Translations under genes and position numbers: made by a program
NCBI GenBank assembly: GCA_034687125.1
Contig: JAQGBZ010000205.1
Span: forward strand, 48,463-112,462
Source of the DNA: Neelides folsomi
Lineage: Eukaryota > Arthropoda > Collembola > Neelipleona > Neelidae
Length of the DNA: 64,000 nucleotides
Direction of reading: 5' to 3'
The notes under the pieces: generated by a model
Told to the model about the DNA's origin: nothing
Database searches by the model: none
Seen by the model: the letters and a program-made list of their open reading frames with translations, nothing else
Shown: one piece after another, positions 11,985 to 57,967 of the stretch
Position numbering within the stretch: position 1 is the first letter of the stretch
Layout of the letters: every line of letters begins with the position of its first letter

Positions 11985-13347
11985 ATGATCGCCCACGCAG
12001 TCCTCTTGTGTTTCGCCGCCGTCCTCGTCCACGCCCAGTACGAGGAGGGTCATTACATCCCGCAGCAACTCCAGCCATATGAGCAACAACAACCGCTTCG
12101 AACCCATCCAAGGCTCCTTGTAAGTCCCAAGGTAACCCATGGTCCGCTCCCAATTACACACTCACATGCACGGAACAATCACCAACACTTACATCATCAC
12201 ATCGGGCCCCGGCGGCTCATCAGTCTCCACAACAACATTCACGGCTCCCAAGAGGTAATTCGCCCAAGCGTTCCACCACTTTCAATGATTTTTTGTACCA
12301 GGAGGGACGACCGCTTCTCAGAGCTGTCAAGAAGGTCCGGATTTCCCAGCAATCTCCTTATGCCGTTGATGAGCCGGTCACGTTCTCCCAGACCGTTCCG
12401 GCCGTAGCGACCTATCGTCCCCAATCCCATGCTTCAGCAGCCCAAACTCTTTCTCATGCCATTGCTCCACAGCCAACTTATTACATCCAAAGACCCACCC
12501 CAATTCATCACCATCATGTTTCGCCCAAACCAATTTTGAGATCTGTCCGACCTCACGTCCAACAAGAACAAGAGCCAGAAGAGGAATATCCCTCTGACGT
12601 AATATTTTCACCAATCATTCAATTATTCTCTTATAATATTTTGATCTCTCAATTACTTTGAAGACATTTATTATCTGATGATCTAACCAATTCTAACCCC
12701 TATGATGTGCTGGTCTAAAATTTCAGCCTAACCCTCAGTACAACTTTTCATTCGACGTCAAAGACGACGAATTGACCAACTATCAGAATCGTCAGGAAGA
12801 ACGCGAAGGTGGAGTCATCAAAGGATCTTATAGCGTCGTTGACCCCGATGGATATGTGAGGACCGTCACTTACACGGCGGATTCAAAGAACGGATTCCAA
12901 GCAAAGGTAATCTTTTCAACAAATATTTGCTCTGGCCTTGTTTGAGCGGAAGTCACCTGTTGATCGAAGGAAGAGGGTTGCGTGTGTGTGGGAGGGTTTC
13001 AGCTCTTATTCAATCTTTTGTAGGTGGTCCGGGAGCCGACGGATGTGAAAGTGAAGGTTCCACCTCCCTCGTTGGCCGAAACTCAACATCAAAATCCGCA
13101 TTCGCACCCTGCTAAGTTGGGACATCATGTGCCAAGGGCTCAACTTGCCGCGTTCCCGCAATATCAACAAGTGTATGCGGCTGCACCAGCCAATCAAGCA
13201 TACTCTCATCAAGCACCTGAACCTTCGCATTATGCCGCTCAGCAGCCGCAGCCTTCATATGTGCTCAGACGAGTCCCAGCATCTCACCTCAACCCAAACT
13301 CACCTCACCAAACTCATCGATTAGTTAAAGTTCTTCGTGCCCAGTAG
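11985..13347 (+). CDS. RR-2 type cuticular protein (chitin_bind_4)
   Basis: Secreted structural cuticle protein binding chitin through an extended Rebers-Riddiford domain. Preferred exons 11985-12119, 12224-12598, 12727-12906, 13024-13347; 337 aa. Exon 1 encodes a signal peptide (MIAHAVLLCFAAVLVHA) followed by Gln-rich sequence. Exon 3 is the RR-2 domain: YNFSFDVKDD, then GGVIKGSYSVVDPDGYVRTV and TYTADSKNGFQAKV. The flanks are His/Gln/Pro/Ala-rich, as in cuticle proteins. The exon 2 acceptor is uncertain: 12224 keeps an open frame reading SPQQHSRLPRGN, but 12301 (EGRPLLRAV) is also in phase 0, and a read-through of exon 1 to 12254 would fit too. AATAAA lies at 13366-13371, just after the stop. 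Confidence 0.88.
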
Positions 13348-23738: not shown

Positions 23739-26044
23739 CTACTTCTTGGGACTCTTGGGATTGCTGCTTTTTGCCCTAGCTGGACTCTTTGTTTGATCTG
23801 AAGGAATTGAAGTGTCTCCGTTACTTCCTTCATCGCTCGTCATTTCGTAATAATCAGAGCCACTATCATCAACTTCGTCTTCATCGTCTCCTTCGTCCTC
23901 ATCATCACCTTCATTTTCGTCTTCTTCTGCTTCTTCTTCAACATTTTCTTCTACTTCTCTTGAATCTTGTTCTTCCTCTTCGTTTTCATCCCCGCTCATT
24001 TCTTCACTTCCTTGGTCACTTTCCTCACCGTATTCTTTTTCATTTGTATCAATCGATTCATCAAGGTCCATCTCGTCCTTCCACGGTAGTTTAAATTCCC
24101 TGAAATGAAAATAAAATGGTCAAACAAAGGTTCATTTTTTTAAAAAATTAATAAACATGGAAAATTAAAATATACTCTATGTGCTGTATACCGTTTATCG
24201 ATTAATGGAAGAGTGTGGCCAAATGCCATAATTGGAATGTCAGGCTTGACTCGAATATAAAGTGCTTTTTCTGGTCTAGGAAGCATGGTGCTCTCATCAT
24301 CAGAAAAATTTCCACCTTTATCTTTCCTGTCAAAATAAAAATAAATATTAAATATTAATAAAATAAATTTTTTGATGATACTGATTACAATAATAAATAT
24401 TTTTTAATTTGATCTGCATACTTTTTCCATTTTGATTTCTTTCCTTTCTTTTTCCCTTTATTTAGTTGACGAGCTTCGATATTTTCTTTTAAACGGAGGA
24501 CATAACTTTCGTCTCGTTGTCGTTGAGAGTCCCAACGTTTTCTTCGCCTCTCTTCGATTTCGGGTTTATTGTGACGTCGAGTAAAAGCTTCATCGTCAAT
24601 TTCTTCGTTTTCTCCATCGTTGACAAACTTTCCAAGCTTTGCGTTTCGCCAAGAGGGAACTTCGACATTCGATAAAGTATTTGCATCAGCTAAGCAATCA
24701 TCTTCTTCTAAAGATGGAGCATCTATTGTTTGAACATAATAAGGCTCATTTGTCGTGAGACAATTATCTTCTTCGTTGAGGTAAACAATCATCTCTTTAG
24801 AATAGCCGCCATCGGGTTCTTCTAAATCTTCATCTTCACTCAGGTAAATTTCTTCTTCTTCTAATGGAAATGCTCGTTTTAGAAAACTAGAAGGGATTTG
24901 TTCTTGCTCTTCTTCAATGTCAAAATCACTGGACTCTATTTCTTGAATAGTCATTTTTGAAGTAGAAGCTACGTGATGTGTTGGAGTTGACGATGTTAAA
25001 AAAGAATCTTTGTAATTGTGCACTTTCGAATCGTCTTCAACAATTTCTTCTTTAATTTTAACTGTATTAGAAGAAAATTATTGAACGGGATTAAAATATT
25101 TTCTAAATGAGATTAAATATTTAATATATTAAATAATAAATAATAAATTTTACTTAATTTAATTATTTTTAAAAATAATTTTTAAATATTAATGATTACC
25201 TTCATCATATTCCGGACTCAAGTACTTTTGACTAACTTCTTTCCTGGTTGAAAATTCAGGGTAAAAATAATTTTTGTACTCCCTCGATGAATCTTCGGGA
25301 GAGGAGATTCGAAGCGGATCTTCTGAAAGCGGCGAAGTGCATGATTTAGAGGGTGAGATTGCAGCGTCATAATGAGAAAGATTTGGAGTTTCAATAAGGT
25401 CTTCTCTTTCATCCTCTTCGCTTGAGGACCATCCTGTCTTCGAATGTGCCGAAACAACGGGAGATAAAACCGGGGGAGGAGGGTCAGATGAATTTGAGAA
25501 TAATCTTCGTTTGATGGGACTCGAATTCGAGGACCGATCAATGTCAATAGGTCTCCTTCCATAATCGCGCTCAGCTGGTGACTCTCTCGAATCTTCATAT
25601 CGCTTTGACAAGTTGTCCTCAAATTCATCTAGTCTTTGACGCAACTGAAATGCCATTTGAAATTTAACCAAGTCATAATGTATTTGATTACAAAATAAGA
25701 ATTTTATAAATAATTAGTGATTATTCTCATTAATTATACATTAAACTTCAATAGTTAAAGTTATAAAAATTTAACTAAATACTAACCTCTCGATTTTCGT
25801 TTTCAAGATATGAGATTCGAAATCCTTGCTGGCGAAGCCGATCTTGTTGCTCTCGAACAAGACATGTTTGAAGGCGGAAGAGTGACTTAAAATGGGCGAC
25901 TTCAGCCGACATCGTGAAAGCCGCCGCAATTGATGACAAATCCCCACTCCGTCCATTGCCATTGCTCGGCTGGATTAATTGCAGATACTCACCGAGAATA
26001 TCTCCCAAATTATCACTGCTCTTCTTCGCAGCTCCCATCCTCAT
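23739..26044 (-). CDS. msl-1: MSL1 (male-specific lethal 1), MOF-complex scaffold
   Basis: Scaffold of the MSL histone H4K16 acetyltransferase complex; in flies it nucleates dosage compensation with MSL2, MSL3 and MOF. Exons 26044-25787, 25644-25200, 25061-24389, 24326-24192, 24099-23739; 623 aa, phases close. The N-terminal coiled coil (about 45-95: LVREQQDRLRQQGF, YLENENRELRQRL) corresponds to the MSL1 dimer/MSL2-binding helix. The PEHE domain spans about 369-515: VPSWRNAKLG, DDEAFTRRHNKPEIEERR, RKRWDSQRQRDESYVLRLKE, IRVKPDIPIMAFGHTLP, REFKLPWKDE, matching human MSL1 closely. The middle is Ser/Pro-rich and acidic. An extra tail of about 100 residues is extremely acidic (long Glu/Asp runs). 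Two ATGs (26044, 26038) are in frame; the first is used here. Confidence 0.92.
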
Positions 26045-26762
26045 CTTGATCCTTCAGCTTCAGGTATTCATGGTATTACTTGTAATGAATAGATTCTACC
26101 TCCTCCTCCCACACCTACCAGAGGTCAAGGGTTGGCCCAGTTGACTTTTCAGTTATTCGGAGTTATTTTTGGCCAAAAATCTTTTGGTTATTCGGCGAGT
26201 TTCGCGTGTGTTGGAATCTCCCCCGCGCTGTGATCTTCACGTGCTCTATGTGTTTTCCGCAGTTTTCCTTACCAGATGACTTGTCAGTGGAGATCTCGTA
26301 CACCAGGTGTGTTGCAAAAAGAGATGATGGTTATTGGGCCCTCTGTGTTTAGTATAGAACCAAAGGGGGAAAAGTTTCCCATCATCAACACACATCTGTT
26401 GGATGAGGGCGAGGTCTGAATTGTCTCACTTCCGTGTCCTCCTCTTCCTCCAACAACTGTAAATCCACCCTTCACCTCCTCGCTTTATATGGGGAACAAT
26501 TGTTTGGAGAAGTGACCAACAATTGAGTTTGGGTTCATTTCTAAATTATTCATCCTCTTTTCAGTCCCATTTAGTCCCTTGGAGGTGAGAGGGTCGGAAG
26601 GAGCAGTTGGAAGTCTTCCCTTGCGTAAACAAAGAGACATTCACTTTGGACCAATTTTGGAGACGGCTCTTGAGAAAGACCTTTCGAGATGACGGAATGA
26701 AGGCGAGTCTTTTAAAGCCTTCTCAAGAACGGTGAGGTCCTCGGGTCGGAGGATCTTTTATA
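26045..26762. promoter_or_regulatory. divergent region between msl-1 and the TspanC8 gene
   Basis: About 700 bp between the start codons of msl-1 (minus) and the tetraspanin gene (plus). Must contain both promoters; no strong TATA box or conserved motif was recognised. Confidence 0.35.
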
Positions 26763-28871
26763 ATGCCTCATCCGAGGAAAAAATACCGGAGAGATGAATC
26801 TGAAGTCAGTTGTTGTCTCAAGTATCTCATTTTTGGATTCAATGTCATTTTCTGGGTAAGATATTTTGTAATTTCTTAATACTTTTGTAAATAAAAACAA
26901 TTTCATTTACAAAAAATATATCAAAGGTCATTCATAAAATTTATAATTCTTTAATTTTATAAAGTTTTAACACAAATTATAAAAGATGTTCTTCTCTCTG
27001 TTTCGTTTAGCTTCTTGGCCTATTTATTCTCGGTGTTGGTGTTTGGGCATGGAGTGAGAAAGAGACCCTATCAAATTTATCCCGTTTGACCCGAGTGGCC
27101 CTCGACCCTGCCTTTCTTCTAGTTGTCGTTGGTTCTCTTACATTTATTATCGGATTCACTGGATGCGTGGGAGCTCTGAGGGAAAATACATGTCTTCTCG
27201 CAGTTTATGCCATTTTTCTTGCTGCCATTTTACTAGTTGAGATCGCCGCTGGAATATTAGGGTAATTTTCATTTTATTATCATTAAGGTTTAATTTTTTA
27301 GATTTCGTTGAATTGGATTAACATTAAGATTATATTTGACGTTTCTAATAATGGGCATTTCTGTTTCTGTTTTTCAGATTTATATTTAAAGATTGGATCA
27401 AAGGTGAAGCGACCAGCGGGTTTCAGTCTTTTATAGTGTCTTATCGAGAAGATCCTGACCAACAAAACCTTATTGATTGGATTCAAGAACGGTGGCTTCA
27501 ATGTTGTGGCATCGAAGGACCGCGTGATTGGGTAAATAATTAAATAACTCTAATTAAATTCGTGTCATTTATTCATTTCCGCATGAATCATATTTAATTG
27601 TTCTTTTCTCAATGTTCTCAGGACAAAAATAACTACTTTAACTGTAACTCGACTGCAAGAGAAGCATGTGGTGTTCCTTTCTCATGTTGCAAGCAGCAGA
27701 CGGTAATTTACAAACTTAATTAACTCCTACATTGAACTAATATAAAATCAATATTTAAGTAGGTCTTTTGACCCATGAAATAAATTATGATCACTGATAT
27801 GAAAGTATGGCAAAATCGGAATTGGAAATTCGTAAAATGAATTCTTGAATTTTCTTTATTTTTAGCTTTGGATTACTAGAAACACTCAATGTGGGTACGA
27901 CGTTCGTAAGCCTGAATATGTGAGTTTGAAATTTAAATCCTTTTATAACCATACATATTAATCTCCCTTATATCTGGCTAGCCATCATTGAGAAACCGTT
28001 GAGTTGAGCTCTTAATTTAAACAAGCAAAGGGGTGATTGTATTATGTAGAATAGCTAATGAAATAGATCCATAATAAAGACAAGAGAAAGTGAGTTATGA
28101 ATAAATTGGGAATTAGCCTGACGACCGGGGTTTGGCAATCTATGAGAGGGGATGTCTTCGATCTGGTGAGGAATGGGTAGAGGCGAATCTCATCCCTGTA
28201 GCGGCTGTCGGCGTGGCCGTTGCCATCCTCCAGGTTCCTCCACAAATCCCTTTCTCAATGTCGTGTTAAATTGCTTATATCTTGCTCAAGCACGCCGTAC
28301 TCCCCGACTTTAATCTCATTGAAAATCATTCAACCAGTGACAACTTTATTATTAAATTTCACAATATATAATTGGAAAAAACTAATGAGTTTATCGTATA
28401 AGTACATAAAAGTTATTATCTATGTATAGTCATATGATTTTGATATTAGCATTTATTGTACTAGTGAATTGATAAAGTTAATTAGATGAAATAGAGCATG
28501 AAATCGAATGCTTATAATTTATGTCATACGTGTTTTCCATGTTAGAGTTTGGATGCTTCGAAAATCATTTTCGAAAATGGATGTTTGAGCTCTGCTGAAG
28601 ACTGGCTAGAAAGGAATCTCGTCATCGTGGCCGGAGCAATCGTAGCTACGGCATTTCTTCAGGTAAAATGGGACATTTACGTTTTTTGTTCAAATCCCAC
28701 CAATGCTTTGCACGGCTAAGCTATGTAAATGTTTTACTGCACGTGATAATTGAATCTAATTTTTGTAATTGACCTAATGAAAATTTAAATGTTTTGGATT
28801 AGATACTTGGGATCTGCTTTGCACAGAATCTCCGAGCTGACGTGTTCGCCCAGCGATCCAAATGGCGCTGA
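26763..28871 (+). CDS. TspanC8 tetraspanin (TSPAN5/14/17/33 class) with alternative exon 6
   Basis: Four-TM protein of the TspanC8 subgroup, which escorts ADAM10/Kuzbanian and so tunes Notch cleavage. Exons 26763-26855, 27011-27261, 27378-27531, 27622-27702, 27866-27919, then either 28117-28233 or 28546-28662, then 28803-28871; 272 aa with either choice (TSPAN5 is 268). Matches to TSPAN5 include [59 protein letters not shown] and [10 protein letters not shown]. The large extracellular loop has eight cysteines (CC, NC, AC, SCC, QC and the GC in exon 6), the defining TspanC8 count. Fly relatives are Tsp3A, Tsp26A and Tsp86D; I cannot say which is the orthologue. Confidence 0.93.
28117..28233 (+). 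other. alternative exon 6a of the TspanC8 gene
   Basis: 117 bp, phase 0 at both ends, flanked by TTAG and GTTCCT. Encodes 39 residues beginning [20 protein letters not shown] and ending VGVAVAILQ: the last loop cysteine plus the first half of TM4. Same length and phases as exon 6b and homologous to it, so either fits between exons 5 and 7. The donor is weaker than that of 6b. Confidence 0.85.
28546..28662 (+). other. alternative exon 6b of the TspanC8 gene
   Basis: 117 bp, phase 0 at both ends, flanked by GTTAG and GTAAAA. Encodes 39 residues beginning [20 protein letters not shown] and ending AIVATAFLQ. Shares with exon 6a the pattern GCL-S-E-W-E-NL-V-A followed by a TM half ending LQ. Splicing both together would duplicate the TM segment, so mutually exclusive use is expected. 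Confidence 0.85.
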
Positions 28872-29624
28872 CAATTAGTGGCTCCCACGTCAATTTGATA
28901 TGGGGGCCGCCTCAGCCAACATCCTCTTGACTTCCTTTGATCACGCGGAACTCCACGGATGTCACAAATATCTGAAAAAAGGAAGTGACTTCCTCGTCGG
29001 ATATTACTCCTATTTTAAAGTGGCTCATTCTACAACGGCAAATCGCCGGCGCATTTCATTTTTACAATACCATTTTATTACTCTCCATTCCTACCACTCA
29101 TATCCTCAATTCTAAATCTCATTGTTTCAGACCGTAATTCCATGTTTAACTACTCATTTTATATGTGAAATAACTCTTTTGTACTTGTTCGAACAATCTA
29201 ATTTCCTAGTTCTGTTGATTTATTGTTCGGAGTAAAATCTCTCTCCCTGTTTAAGCGTGAGTCTCATCAAACTTAAAATTAATTGACAATAATAATGTCA
29301 TCGTGTGACGATAAGTTTAAATTTAAAAAAGAGTACTTCCAGTCAAATGAGTTCTTAATTGTTATATTTGTTACTCATTAACTTATTAGAATTTAACTTA
29401 TTGCGCATTTGTACGTAAAAGCAATCTCAATTAAGCAACTTTTTGTATAAGAAACGAATTGAGAAGCCACAGTCATTGAAATGGAGACAATTTATAATAT
29501 TAATTTATTACTATAAATGGGAATAGATACTGGTGAATATAACTACAATATGCTGCTATATTGCGTACGCCATGTATAAACTTTAACCTATTGTATTTAT
29601 TATTTTGAATTCAAATAAAAAATT

Positions 29625-29718
29625 TGACTTTCTCGGGGCTATACTTATATCCTTGAACGTGATACAGATACTTAAAGAACATGCTTAAATTATGCAATTT
29701 CATGTCCCGAGAAAGTCA
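29625..29718. repeat. 13-bp inverted repeat with 68-bp spacer
   Basis: TGACTTTCTCGGG at 29625-29637 and its exact complement at 29706-29718. Similarity weakly extends outward (TTCAAAT in both arms). Could be a short palindromic remnant or a hairpin; no flanking duplication was recognised. Confidence 0.6.
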
Positions 29719-29855
29719 TTGCCAATTTGAATATGAAAATGAATATAATCGTAATTTACTATAATCATAGAAAATAGAGATATTAATCCAAATAAAATGA
29801 TCTAAAGGTAAAAGGCAAAAATACTCTTTTATATTTAAAAGGAAAGGCATTTAAT

Positions 29856-29889
29856 ACACTGGACCTCTAATTACACTGGACCTCTAATT
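29856..29889. repeat. perfect 17-bp tandem duplication
   Basis: ACACTGGACCTCTAATT occurs twice in direct succession (29856-29872, 29873-29889). Too few copies for a satellite; a local slippage or repair duplication. Confidence 0.9.
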
Positions 29890-31455
29890 GCTCTCTTAAA
29901 AGAACAATCTGGTCGTCAACAATTTCCGTGTACCTTAAAGCGGATATATTAATTAAGAAGTGACACTAACTTTTTATAATTTAAACTTACGTAATGGTTA
30001 TGTAGCTGTACTTAAACCACGTTTGTAACGCCCTCGACTCATTATCATAACATTTAACGGAGAGTGTGGGAAGAAGGCGATTATATTTTACTTCTTTATT
30101 TATTCCCCTCGCCTATTGTTTCGCAATGACTCTCATGCGGATCTGCAAGTGTGATTTCGTACATTTTATACTACTCAGTTTTGTATCATAATTTAAACGT
30201 TTTCATTTAAGACATTCAAGAAATAAAAGTCAAAGTCCTCGAATTGGCTTCTATTCGCTTTCTCACCTCCAATCTCCTGCACGCATCCTTATCATAATGA
30301 CACTTGTTTTTAAAAGTAAATAATTCATTCCGGATCATGATGATAAATTAAGAAACAAGCATGAGGATTTCGTATATCCACTCCAAAGACCCTGGTAGTG
30401 AAATGTTTAGTGAAGACAGGTCATTAGAGTGATTTATTTTTCTTGTAGAGAGTTGTGATCTTTGAAGGCTAATTAGTCAGAGTAGGATAATTTTGGATGT
30501 TTATGAAAGTTATGAAGCAAAAAGTGAAATTTGAACTATGAATGGTTCGGTGCGGATTCGAGCCTTGAAAAAGATGTTTCCCTATCTGAAGAGTCGAAGA
30601 GAATGGAAGATAATCATTAAGCACGAATTAGACCAGATGAAGAACAAAGGAAGCTTCCCGTATCAAACTGACCTTCAGTATGGGGAATCAAACTGATGCT
30701 GTTCTTAATCGCTTCCTCTTCTCTCCACCTACATCTAAAACTAAAAGCGCCTATATGCTAAAAGGGTAAGAACGCACAACAATTATTCTACGTTGTTCTG
30801 AGGAATATTTTCCTCGATCTTCTGTTTGAGTCTTGTGATTAGCAATGATTAGGTTCAGAATAAGATGTTTATTTATAAGCACAATGTGCATACATAGTGG
30901 TTGCATACATATAAATTAGAGTATTACAGTATAAATAGATATTTGAATTAGGTAAATATTAAGGTTTTAAATTTATTTAACACATAAAGCTCATATTAGA
31001 AATAACAATGAACTACATGTAATACTTGTTGATGCATTGTTTATTATTTATACGTATACTATTGCAAAGATTACATGTTTGTCATTTGCGGAAATCTTTA
31101 GAGTTTTAATTAATCAACAAAAACTTTTTTCTTAGAAAAACCTGTTTATTTTTCAGTAGGCTTAAAAGACATGTCCAGGCTCAAATCCTTATGTACATTA
31201 TAACAAGCATATTTTATGTGCGTCTGAATCTCTGAATAGATGAAACAGGAAGATGAGAACAATTTTATTCGAGTGGGAAGATCTCCGCTTCTTCACAATA
31301 AATGAAAAGAATTGCAAGACTCACGAACTTAAAGAAGGATTATCTTTGAATCTCTCAGCTCTAAAAATTTCCTCTTTCTCCTCTCTCTCACTGCTCCATT
31401 TTTCTCATTTTACAATCTTGTAGATTTTTTAGTTCAGTGTGGAAAAGAAATCAGT

Positions 31456-42455: not shown

Positions 42456-43407
42456 ATGAACTCCGTGAGTATTCCAGATATTTTTCACTGTAGCTCATAA
42501 TTTTTAATTATGTATTATTACCAATACCAAATCAGAGGAAATTTAACTATTATAATATCTACAGATAGTTATTAAATAAAAATTATAAATATTATGTAAG
42601 GCATTTAAATTTTACTTATATTTATTCCAGTTGGTCCTGGCGTTTGCCCTAATCGGAGGGCTTGCAGCAGTTTCGGTTGCTTATTCTTACGACTACGATT
42701 ATGATGAAGGGCTTTTCGAGAACTTTGGAGCAAAGATGATCCAAGCAGCGAGACAAAAGCGTCAAAATAATCACAATAACAACAGAGGCGCTTATGGACC
42801 CAACCAGGGATCTTCCCGAAACCAAGGATTCAATCAAGGAAACAACAACAACCAAGGAGGATTCAACAGCAATCAGCGGGGAGGAAACAACAACAACAAT
42901 GGAGGATTCGGAGGTTCTCAAACAACTCCAATTTCCATTCTTAAATACGAAAACGTGAACAATGGAGATGGAACCTACAACTACAATTATGAGACTGCTA
43001 ATGGAATAACTGCTGAAGAACGCGGGTATCTCAAAAATCCCGGATCAAACAACGAAATCCAAGCTGTCCAAGGATCTTACCAATACTACAGCCCAGAAGG
43101 ACAACTTCTTCGTGTCACTTACACAGCTGATGAAGATGGTATTTTTAAAAATTATTTCATTAAGATAAAATCCTCCTTTGCTCTTTGTTATAAAAATTGA
43201 TATACTTTCTTATTTAAAATAAAAGGTTTCAAGCCAGTCGGAGATCATTTGCCAACTCCTCCACCAATTCCAGAAGCAATTCAAAAAGCTCTTGCTATCA
43301 TTTATGCCAATGCAGCTCAGCAAAAGTCATCGGGAGGAAACAATAACAACAACGGACAATTCAATGGTGGCAACAATCACCTTGGTGGAAACCGAGGACG
43401 TTATTAA
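42456..43407 (+). CDS. RR-1 cuticular protein, Asn/Gly/Gln-rich
   Basis: Chitin-binding cuticle protein of soft (flexible) cuticle type. Exons 42456-42464 (MNS), 42631-43138, 43226-43407; 232 aa, phases close. The signal peptide is split after three residues ([22 protein letters not shown]). An Asn/Gly/Gln-rich low-complexity region (repeats like [13 protein letters not shown]) precedes the extended RR-1 domain: [56 protein letters not shown]. The [14 protein letters not shown] tail is typical of crustacean and insect RR-1 proteins. An [11 protein letters not shown] tail ends in RGRY. The phase-1 intron inside the TADEDG motif is shared with the gene at 57.3 kb. Confidence 0.93.
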
Positions 43408-47783: not shown

Positions 47784-48711
47784 ATGATGAAACAAGTGAG
47801 CTCCCGAAACAATTCTCTCGGTTCTTATTTCCAACATCCTAACATTAATCCTAATTGATCATTTTGTACTTTTTAGACGATCCTCCTCTTCGCCCTCCTC
47901 GGAGTTGCCTTCGGACAATTCCGCAACCAACAGCCAGTCCGAAGCAGCCGACAAGCTACTCAAGATGATGTTAGAATCGTCAGGAGCGAACGTGACGACC
48001 GAGAAGATGGTTCTTACAATTACCTTTGGGAGACTTCTGATGGAAGCCAAGCCGAGCAGACTGGATACGTTAAAAATTTGATCAACGAAGAAACTGGAGT
48101 CGAAGGGCCAAATATTGTCATGAAGGGATCATACCAATATTACGACCCAGAAGGTCAACTCATCAAGATCAGCTACATCGCCGATGAAAATGTAAGGACA
48201 ATTTACACATTTAATAGACCCCTCTTCTTCTTGTCTCTTTACTATCGCATAATCTCCTTACTTCTAAGGAGTTGATGTAGCCAACAAGATTGAACATTAT
48301 CTTGTAGGTGCAAACGACAATTAAGGGGAATTTCTTGTAATCAACCCAATCACGCTAAGGTCTTTGAAGCATCTTCACATTCTTCTTTGAAGATCCACTC
48401 ACTTTCAATGAATTTAAAAGAAACCGACCTTCGATCTTAATAGCACCCCGGAACTTACCACTTAATATATTAGTTGTATTTAAATGAAATCCCAAACTGC
48501 GTCTTTTGTCCATTTTTATAACTTCATCTCTTTAATTGCAATATAGGGATTCCAACCAATTGGAGATCATTTGCCAACACCACCACCAGTTCCAGAAGCA
48601 ATCCAACGAGCTTTGGAGATCATCTACAGGAACGCTGATATGCAACGCGCTGCTGCTTCCAACCAAGCCCCAGTCCGAGCCCACAGACCATCCAACAACC
48701 GACGATTTTAA
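47784..48711 (+). CDS. RR-1 cuticular protein
   Basis: Exons 47784-47795 (MMKQ), 47877-48191, 48547-48711; 163 aa, phases close. The signal peptide is [18 protein letters not shown], split by an intron after four residues. The extended RR-1 domain includes [40 protein letters not shown] and [20 protein letters not shown], then [12 protein letters not shown]. The intron within the domain is in phase 0 at DEN|G, whereas the genes at 42.5 and 57.3 kb use phase 1 one base later. Likely an endocuticle or flexible-cuticle component. Two ATGs in tandem (47784, 47787); the first is used. Confidence 0.93.
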
Positions 48712-57287: not shown

Positions 57288-57967
57288 ATGCTCTCACGGA
57301 CTCTTCTCCTTCTTGCGTTGACTGCTGGGTCAGCAATTGGAAGGCCACAAGCTCCTCCCGGGTCAGCACCTCCTCCGGGTGGGCCTCCTCCAGGAGGATC
57401 CCCACCGCCCGGCGGAGCTCCTCCAGGCCCAGCAGTGACCATTGTGAAAAGCGAACACGACAATCCCGGAGATGGAACCTTCAAATGGAGCTACGAACTC
57501 TCAGATGGAAGCAAGTCGGATCAAATGGCCCACACGAACAACAGAGGAACGGATCAGGAAAGCATTGCAATAGAAGGATCCTATTCTTATGTTGACAAAG
57601 ACGGGAAAACTTACATGGTTTCTTACAAGGCAGACGAAGGGGGTAAGAAAACTTAAAATTGTTCAATTATCATGTAAATCTCAGTTTTTATATTTACACC
57701 CATGAAGATGCAAATTATCTTTTTAATATTTAACTTATCTTGTAAGAGCATGAGCGGCTTGTGAAGTGCATGAAGATGAAAGTGAACTGATTTGTATTAT
57801 TTTTACAATTAGGTTTTCAACCCGTTGGTGATCATATTGCCCCCGCAATTGTAGCTTCGGCCGCTGCCGCCAAGAACAATGTGGACAGCACAGGTCAACC
57901 CGGAGCTCCCGCAGAACCCACAAAACAAGCCATCAGCATAGCTAGTGCTCCTTCAAACGCCGGATAA
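57288..57967 (+). CDS. RR-1 cuticular protein with Pro/Gly-rich N terminus
   Basis: Exons 57288-57642 and 57813-57967; 169 aa, phase 1 join. The signal peptide is MLSRTLLLLALTAGSAIG, here not interrupted by an intron, unlike the other two RR-1 genes. A Pro/Gly segment of PPGG-type repeats (about residues 22-48) precedes the RR-1 domain: NPGDGTFKWSYELSDGSKSD, SIAIEGSYSYVDKDGKTYMV, SYKADEGGFQPVGDHI. The C-terminal tail is Ala-rich rather than PTPPP, so it is a distinct RR-1 subtype. The intron sits in the same place and phase as in the 42.5-kb gene. AATAAA follows at about 57975. Confidence 0.92.

Follow-up and report, generated by a model that had tools for sequence, protein, structure and literature searches.

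What is the function of two homologous exons that lie within one intron of a tetraspanin gene in Neelides folsomi? The gene is located in the window, which is the whole 64,000-nucleotide stretch of DNA analysed here, and is complete on the + strand at 26763-28871, as judged by translation of exons 1-5, exon 6a or 6b, and exon 7. The frame encodes 272 amino acids up to the stop codon with exon 6a and likewise with exon 6b, and this read-through shows that the neighbouring exon borders at 27919 and 28803, which had been proposed in an earlier note on this DNA, are correct. The gene is organized as follows (ranks refer to all GT or AG dinucleotides in the gene).

26763..26855, + strand: exon 1, coding part from the ATG to the donor, 31 residues; donor rank 1 of 114 GT
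27011..27261, + strand: exon 2, end of transmembrane segment 1 (TM1) to TM3; open frame, splice sites and PF00335 match
27378..27531, + strand: exon 3, first part of the large loop with the CCG motif; PF00335 match and translation
27622..27702, + strand: exon 4, loop cysteines 3 to 6; translation
27866..27919, + strand: exon 5, loop cysteine 7, phase 0 at its end; donor rank 11 of 114 GT
28117..28233, + strand: exon 6a, 39 codons that encode the final loop cysteine and the larger part of TM4; donor very weak, acceptor weak
28234..28269, + strand: the 6a frame stays open for 11 further codons and then reaches TAA; candidate alternative C terminus if the 6a donor is unused
28546..28662, + strand: exon 6b, 39 homologous codons; good donor and weak acceptor
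28803..28871, + strand: exon 7, coding part with the TM4 end, C-terminal tail and stop, 22 codons and the stop codon; acceptor rank 15 of 99 AG

The encoded protein matches the PF00335 (tetraspanin) profile with 187.6 bits in the 6a version and 186.0 bits in the 6b version against a cut-off of 32.1, and the match covers profile positions 1-221 of 225. The CCG motif corresponds to residues 157-159, and the large extracellular loop contains eight cysteines with either exon (residues 157, 158, 174, 182, 188, 189, 202 and 224), which is the mark of the TspanC8 subgroup. The best match in the PDB is TSPAN15 from its complex with ADAM10 (8esv; E 1.7e-41 with 6b and 2.3e-39 with 6a), a protein that shares the eight loop cysteines and the four membrane spans with the product of this gene. 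The eight loop cysteines and the TSPAN15 match support the assignment of the predicted protein as a TspanC8-type tetraspanin and, together with the profile match, bear out the TspanC8 identity that the earlier note had proposed.

Exons 6a and 6b are homologous. The two 117-nucleotide segments have exactly the borders that had been claimed for them, each with an open frame 0, a preceding AG, a following GT and phase 0 at both ends. They are identical at 61 of 117 nucleotides and 19 of 39 residues, and their BLOSUM62 score of 89 lies beyond every one of 100,000 shuffles (mean -34, maximum 33). The identical nucleotides are distributed over codon positions 1, 2 and 3 as 24, 24 and 13 of 39. Substitution counting gave a pS of 0.79, at which synonymous sites are saturated, and a pN of 0.38, and a further substitution method yielded a dN of 0.52 with dS undefined. 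When 56 random differences were placed on 6b, the number of identical residues never reached 19 in 20,000 trials (highest value 16), and a stop codon arose in 15,547 of the trials. The saturated synonymous sites, the lower pN and the failure of all 20,000 neutral trials indicate that the duplication is old and that the protein sequence was under constraint for most of the time since, a result that covers the divergence after duplication and is separate from the matter of present-day constraint on 6a. The splice borders were retained as well. With AG and GT frequencies of 0.056 and 0.047 among the dinucleotides of the whole window, the presence of both at the homologous borders has a chance of ~0.003, provided that selection is absent and each dinucleotide occurs independently of the other. 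Given that silent sites have been randomized, this retention suggests that 6a is a real exon.

How widely does this duplication occur in the genome of the animal? In the assembly (75.1 Mb, 840 contigs), neither exon had a match at E <= 10 beyond itself and the other, in a search that is insensitive to distant copies and likewise missed the split counterpart in the paralog described below. No third copy is evident within 26700-30000, where the next score is 7 versus 199 and 191, and a search for a second haplotype of the locus returned only the window itself. Among 30 PF00335 matches in the genome, a second TspanC8-like gene was located on contig C176 (124760-126700), and a visual count in its translated frames gave the same cysteine pattern as in the present gene. 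The C176 paralog contains a single exon 6 counterpart, which an extra intron interrupts behind a conserved tryptophan and whose border falls after the same glutamine that ends both 6a and 6b. Thus, the duplication is absent from the paralog. Pattern scans with exon 2 gave 35 matches in viral_contigs and 592 in genome_contigs, none of which tblastn confirmed as a relative; with a gene from an animal, this outcome is expected.

Members of the TspanC8 subgroup bind ADAM10 and aid its maturation. The same assembly contains two matches to the ADAM10 cysteine-rich profile over the cut-off, on contigs C222 (E 2.8e-16) and C228 (E 2.5e-5), and a Notch-like match that consists of three adjacent Notch repeats. 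As to the surroundings of the gene, the cuticle protein profile PF00379, whose family is an arthropod marker, has 39 listed matches in the genome; four of these are found in the window (12724-12912, 42958-43140, 47997-48191 and 57462-57644), including the best-scoring one of the list. By eye, the minus strand of the window at 24001-26050 also looks coding and is rich in acidic and serine stretches. Its frame seems to start ~0.7 kb from the tetraspanin start, which allows for a possible shared promoter region.

The splice sites of the two exons differ in strength. Splice sites were scored with a matrix from 12 introns, namely the four constitutive introns of this gene and eight of the C176 paralog that were set by hand from conserved frames; the scores are rough given this small training set. 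In leave-one-out scoring, the reference donors ranged from 3.9 to 8.7 and the reference acceptors from 3.0 to 12.2. The 6a donor, CAG/GTTCCT (slash, exon border), scores 0.6, which is below all 12 reference donors (rank 55 of 114 GT in the gene), and lacks the +3 purine common to all 12. The 6b donor scores 6.9 (rank 5 of 114 GT). The acceptors of 6a (-1.2, rank 43 of 99 AG) and 6b (0.3, rank 31 of 99 AG) are each below all 12 reference acceptors, and the flanking sites with which both would be joined score 4.8 (exon 5 donor) and 4.1 (exon 7 acceptor). Exon 6a therefore combines the weakest donor and the weakest acceptor among the exons of the gene. The AG and GT borders claimed earlier are thus present on both exons but are not equal in strength, the 6a donor being very weak. 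Weak acceptors are common in regulated exons. Minor (U12) splicing was considered as a source of exclusion and rejected, as 6a has no U12-like donor when compared by eye with the consensus.

Inverted repeats flank 6a (for example, 27986-28008 with 28238-28260) and were considered as competing RNA structures. In intron-intron pairing of three intron pairs, however, 130, 134 and 165 of 200 dinucleotide shuffles were at least as stable, and five folds gave z-scores of -0.71 to 1.17, with nothing beyond shuffles. This test of a single genome gives no support to competing structures of the docking-selector type; it relies on duplex energies of whole introns, which respond little to short elements, and such elements would be missed.

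What would the choice between the two exons change in the protein? As the earlier note had stated, either exon completes the eight-cysteine loop and TM4 in a 272-residue protein, and TM4 is hydrophobic in each version (best 19-residue mean hydropathy of 2.52 for 6a with exon 7 and 2.47 for 6b with exon 7). Up to loop cysteine 7, and again in the C-terminal tail, the two isoforms are the same. The exchanged segment covers the surroundings of the last cysteine, the helix that runs down to the membrane and most of TM4, and 20 of its 39 positions differ. In a gapless placement of the outgroup segments, which for TSPAN7 is approximate ahead of the cysteine, 6a and 6b share 9 and 12 residues, respectively, with the C176 paralog, 9 and 9 with TSPAN15, and 8 and 11 with TSPAN7. 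At positions 27 and 30, 6b has I and G, as do the C176 paralog, TSPAN15 and TSPAN7, and 6a has P and A. Given the agreement of 6b with all three outgroups, 6a is derived at these two positions, and 6b appears to keep the more ancestral-like TM4 start. Exon 6a alone agrees with two of the three outgroups at position 31 and with TSPAN15 at positions 9 and 11.

The topology of the protein also bears on whether the exons exclude each other. Inclusion of both keeps the frame and yields 311 amino acids with two separate hydrophobic TM4-like stretches, in keeping with the earlier claim that joint inclusion would break the topology; omission of both also keeps the frame and leaves no TM4 (best 19-residue mean of 0.66). 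Because one product would have two TM4-like stretches and the other none, mutual exclusion is likely. The lengths of the exons are divisible by three, and thus the reading frame does not enforce exclusion.

We propose, with a slight leaning in its favor, that 6b is the default exon and 6a a regulated alternative and that the two are probably mutually exclusive. In this view, the next-to-last coding exon of a TspanC8 gene was duplicated in tandem long ago, which yielded two interchangeable exons. Exon 6b, with its good donor, would be used by default, and the weakly bordered 6a would be picked in some tissue or developmental stage by exon-recognition factors, so that each transcript would carry either 6a or 6b. 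The use of 6a, its regulation and the mutual exclusion are what we infer from the borders, the constraint and the topology. More speculatively, the exchange may affect how the loop packs against the membrane core, how the protein behaves in the membrane or how the ADAM10 complex is trafficked; a wholesale change in ADAM10 binding seems less likely.

The main rival to this proposal, although unlikely, is that 6a is an alternative last exon whose donor is ignored, such that 11 further codons are read before the TAA at 28267, with the end of the transcript in the intron between 6a and 6b. The locus would then switch between two C termini and not between mutually exclusive internal exons. The very weak 6a donor, the 11 open codons and an ATTAAA at 28351 fit such an exon, as does a G+C content of ~0.42-0.45 for ~100 nucleotides past 6a that then falls to ~0.2. 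However, an AATAAA or ATTAAA also occurs in 70% of 1000 shuffles of 28267-28545, and the G+C content is 0.37-0.40 for ~100 nucleotides after 6b as well. Moreover, the GT is retained exactly at the homologous border (~5% by chance), and the resulting TM4 would be short and broken by PP, with a best 19-residue hydropathy of 1.93 versus 2.52 when exon 7 is joined.

To an equally low degree, we consider that 6a may be a fading duplicate that was in use in the past but is seldom, if ever, spliced today. Its donor and acceptor, the weakest of the exons of the gene, and its loss of the two TM4 residues that 6b and the three outgroups keep are consistent with decay. However, the 6a frame and borders are intact after a divergence that saturated the synonymous sites, and 6a is not wildly more diverged from the outgroups than 6b.

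A function of 6a as a regulatory (poison) exon is quite improbable. A GT at 28166 inside 6a scores 6.0 as a donor versus 0.6 for the own donor of 6a (rank 8 of 114 GT), and its use would produce a 49-nucleotide exon and a frameshift that lowers expression, with early stops at 244 or 239 amino acids, versus 272, upon joining to 6b or exon 7. However, this function leaves unexplained why the remainder of 6a has retained a TM4-coding frame and its border. Least probable of all is the inclusion of 6a and 6b together to add a span, for which the 311-residue frame is open but the two TM4-like stretches break the tetraspanin topology.

The proposed choice between a default 6b and a regulated 6a can be compared with known systems, since mutually exclusive exons that arose by tandem duplication are well known as a class. 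Among the closest likenesses are exons 18a and 18b of arthropod N-Cadherin, which are also tandem homologous exons, each encoding part of a transmembrane domain, and of which arthropod transcripts are reported to include either one or the other (PMC2655722). N-Cadherin differs in that it is a single-pass adhesion receptor and not a four-span tetraspanin, and its exons are backed by mRNA and several arthropod genomes (PMC2655722), whereas 6a and 6b are known from the DNA of one genome. The transmembrane isoforms of N-Cadherin are described as showing no difference in localization in neurons but a graded homophilic interaction in cells (PMC2655722). Human tandem duplicated exon substitutions, reported as 236 events in 214 genes, resemble the 6a/6b pair in that an old duplicate provides a homologous replacement with the phase kept (PMC9741552); the words "tetraspanin" and "TSPAN" are absent from the main text of that report.

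Splicing also changes the spans and the loop in non-conventional tetraspanins, but the cases reported lose or truncate segments (PMC6773723), unlike the replacement of one segment by another in 6a and 6b, and the term "mutually exclusive" is absent from the main text of that article. No tetraspanin with mutually exclusive exons was found among the literature matches listed, as judged by titles and the starts of abstracts, a scope that does not extend to the catalogue that Hatje and Kollmar (2013) compiled for Drosophila. If used as proposed, exons 6a and 6b would be a tetraspanin case of a known exon kind.

How could the two isoforms relate to ADAM10? The earlier note suggested that the switch would act on ADAM10 partnering or trafficking. 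Tspan14 is reported to require its whole loop to bind ADAM10; the variable part of the loop cannot be dispensed with but does not suffice by itself (PMC4751363). The structure of ADAM10 with Tspan15 is said to have no transmembrane contact as extensive as that of ADAM17-iRhom2 (PMC12184519). In chimeras of Tspan5 and Tspan15, the main extracellular region of Tspan5 placed in Tspan15 reportedly gave no Notch activation, and surface stability depended on the cytoplasmic regions; the same report treats the steering of ADAM10 among substrates by TspanC8 proteins as an open question (PMC8268256). The structural and chimera studies thus disfavor a simple switch of ADAM10 partner and make trafficking or the packing of the loop on the membrane a better guess.

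Mammals have six separate TspanC8 genes (PMC4751363), whereas the present gene contains two versions of one segment. It is conceivable, although rather unlikely, that, in an animal with few TspanC8 genes, one such gene with a mutually exclusive TM4 exon tunes the handling of ADAM10 where mammals use separate genes. If this were true, the surface lifetime, compartment or substrate choice of ADAM10, including Notch, would be set by splicing. In addition, two natural isoforms whose differences are confined to TM4 and the base of the large loop would allow a ready test of whether that segment matters, with the gene and the genetic background unchanged.
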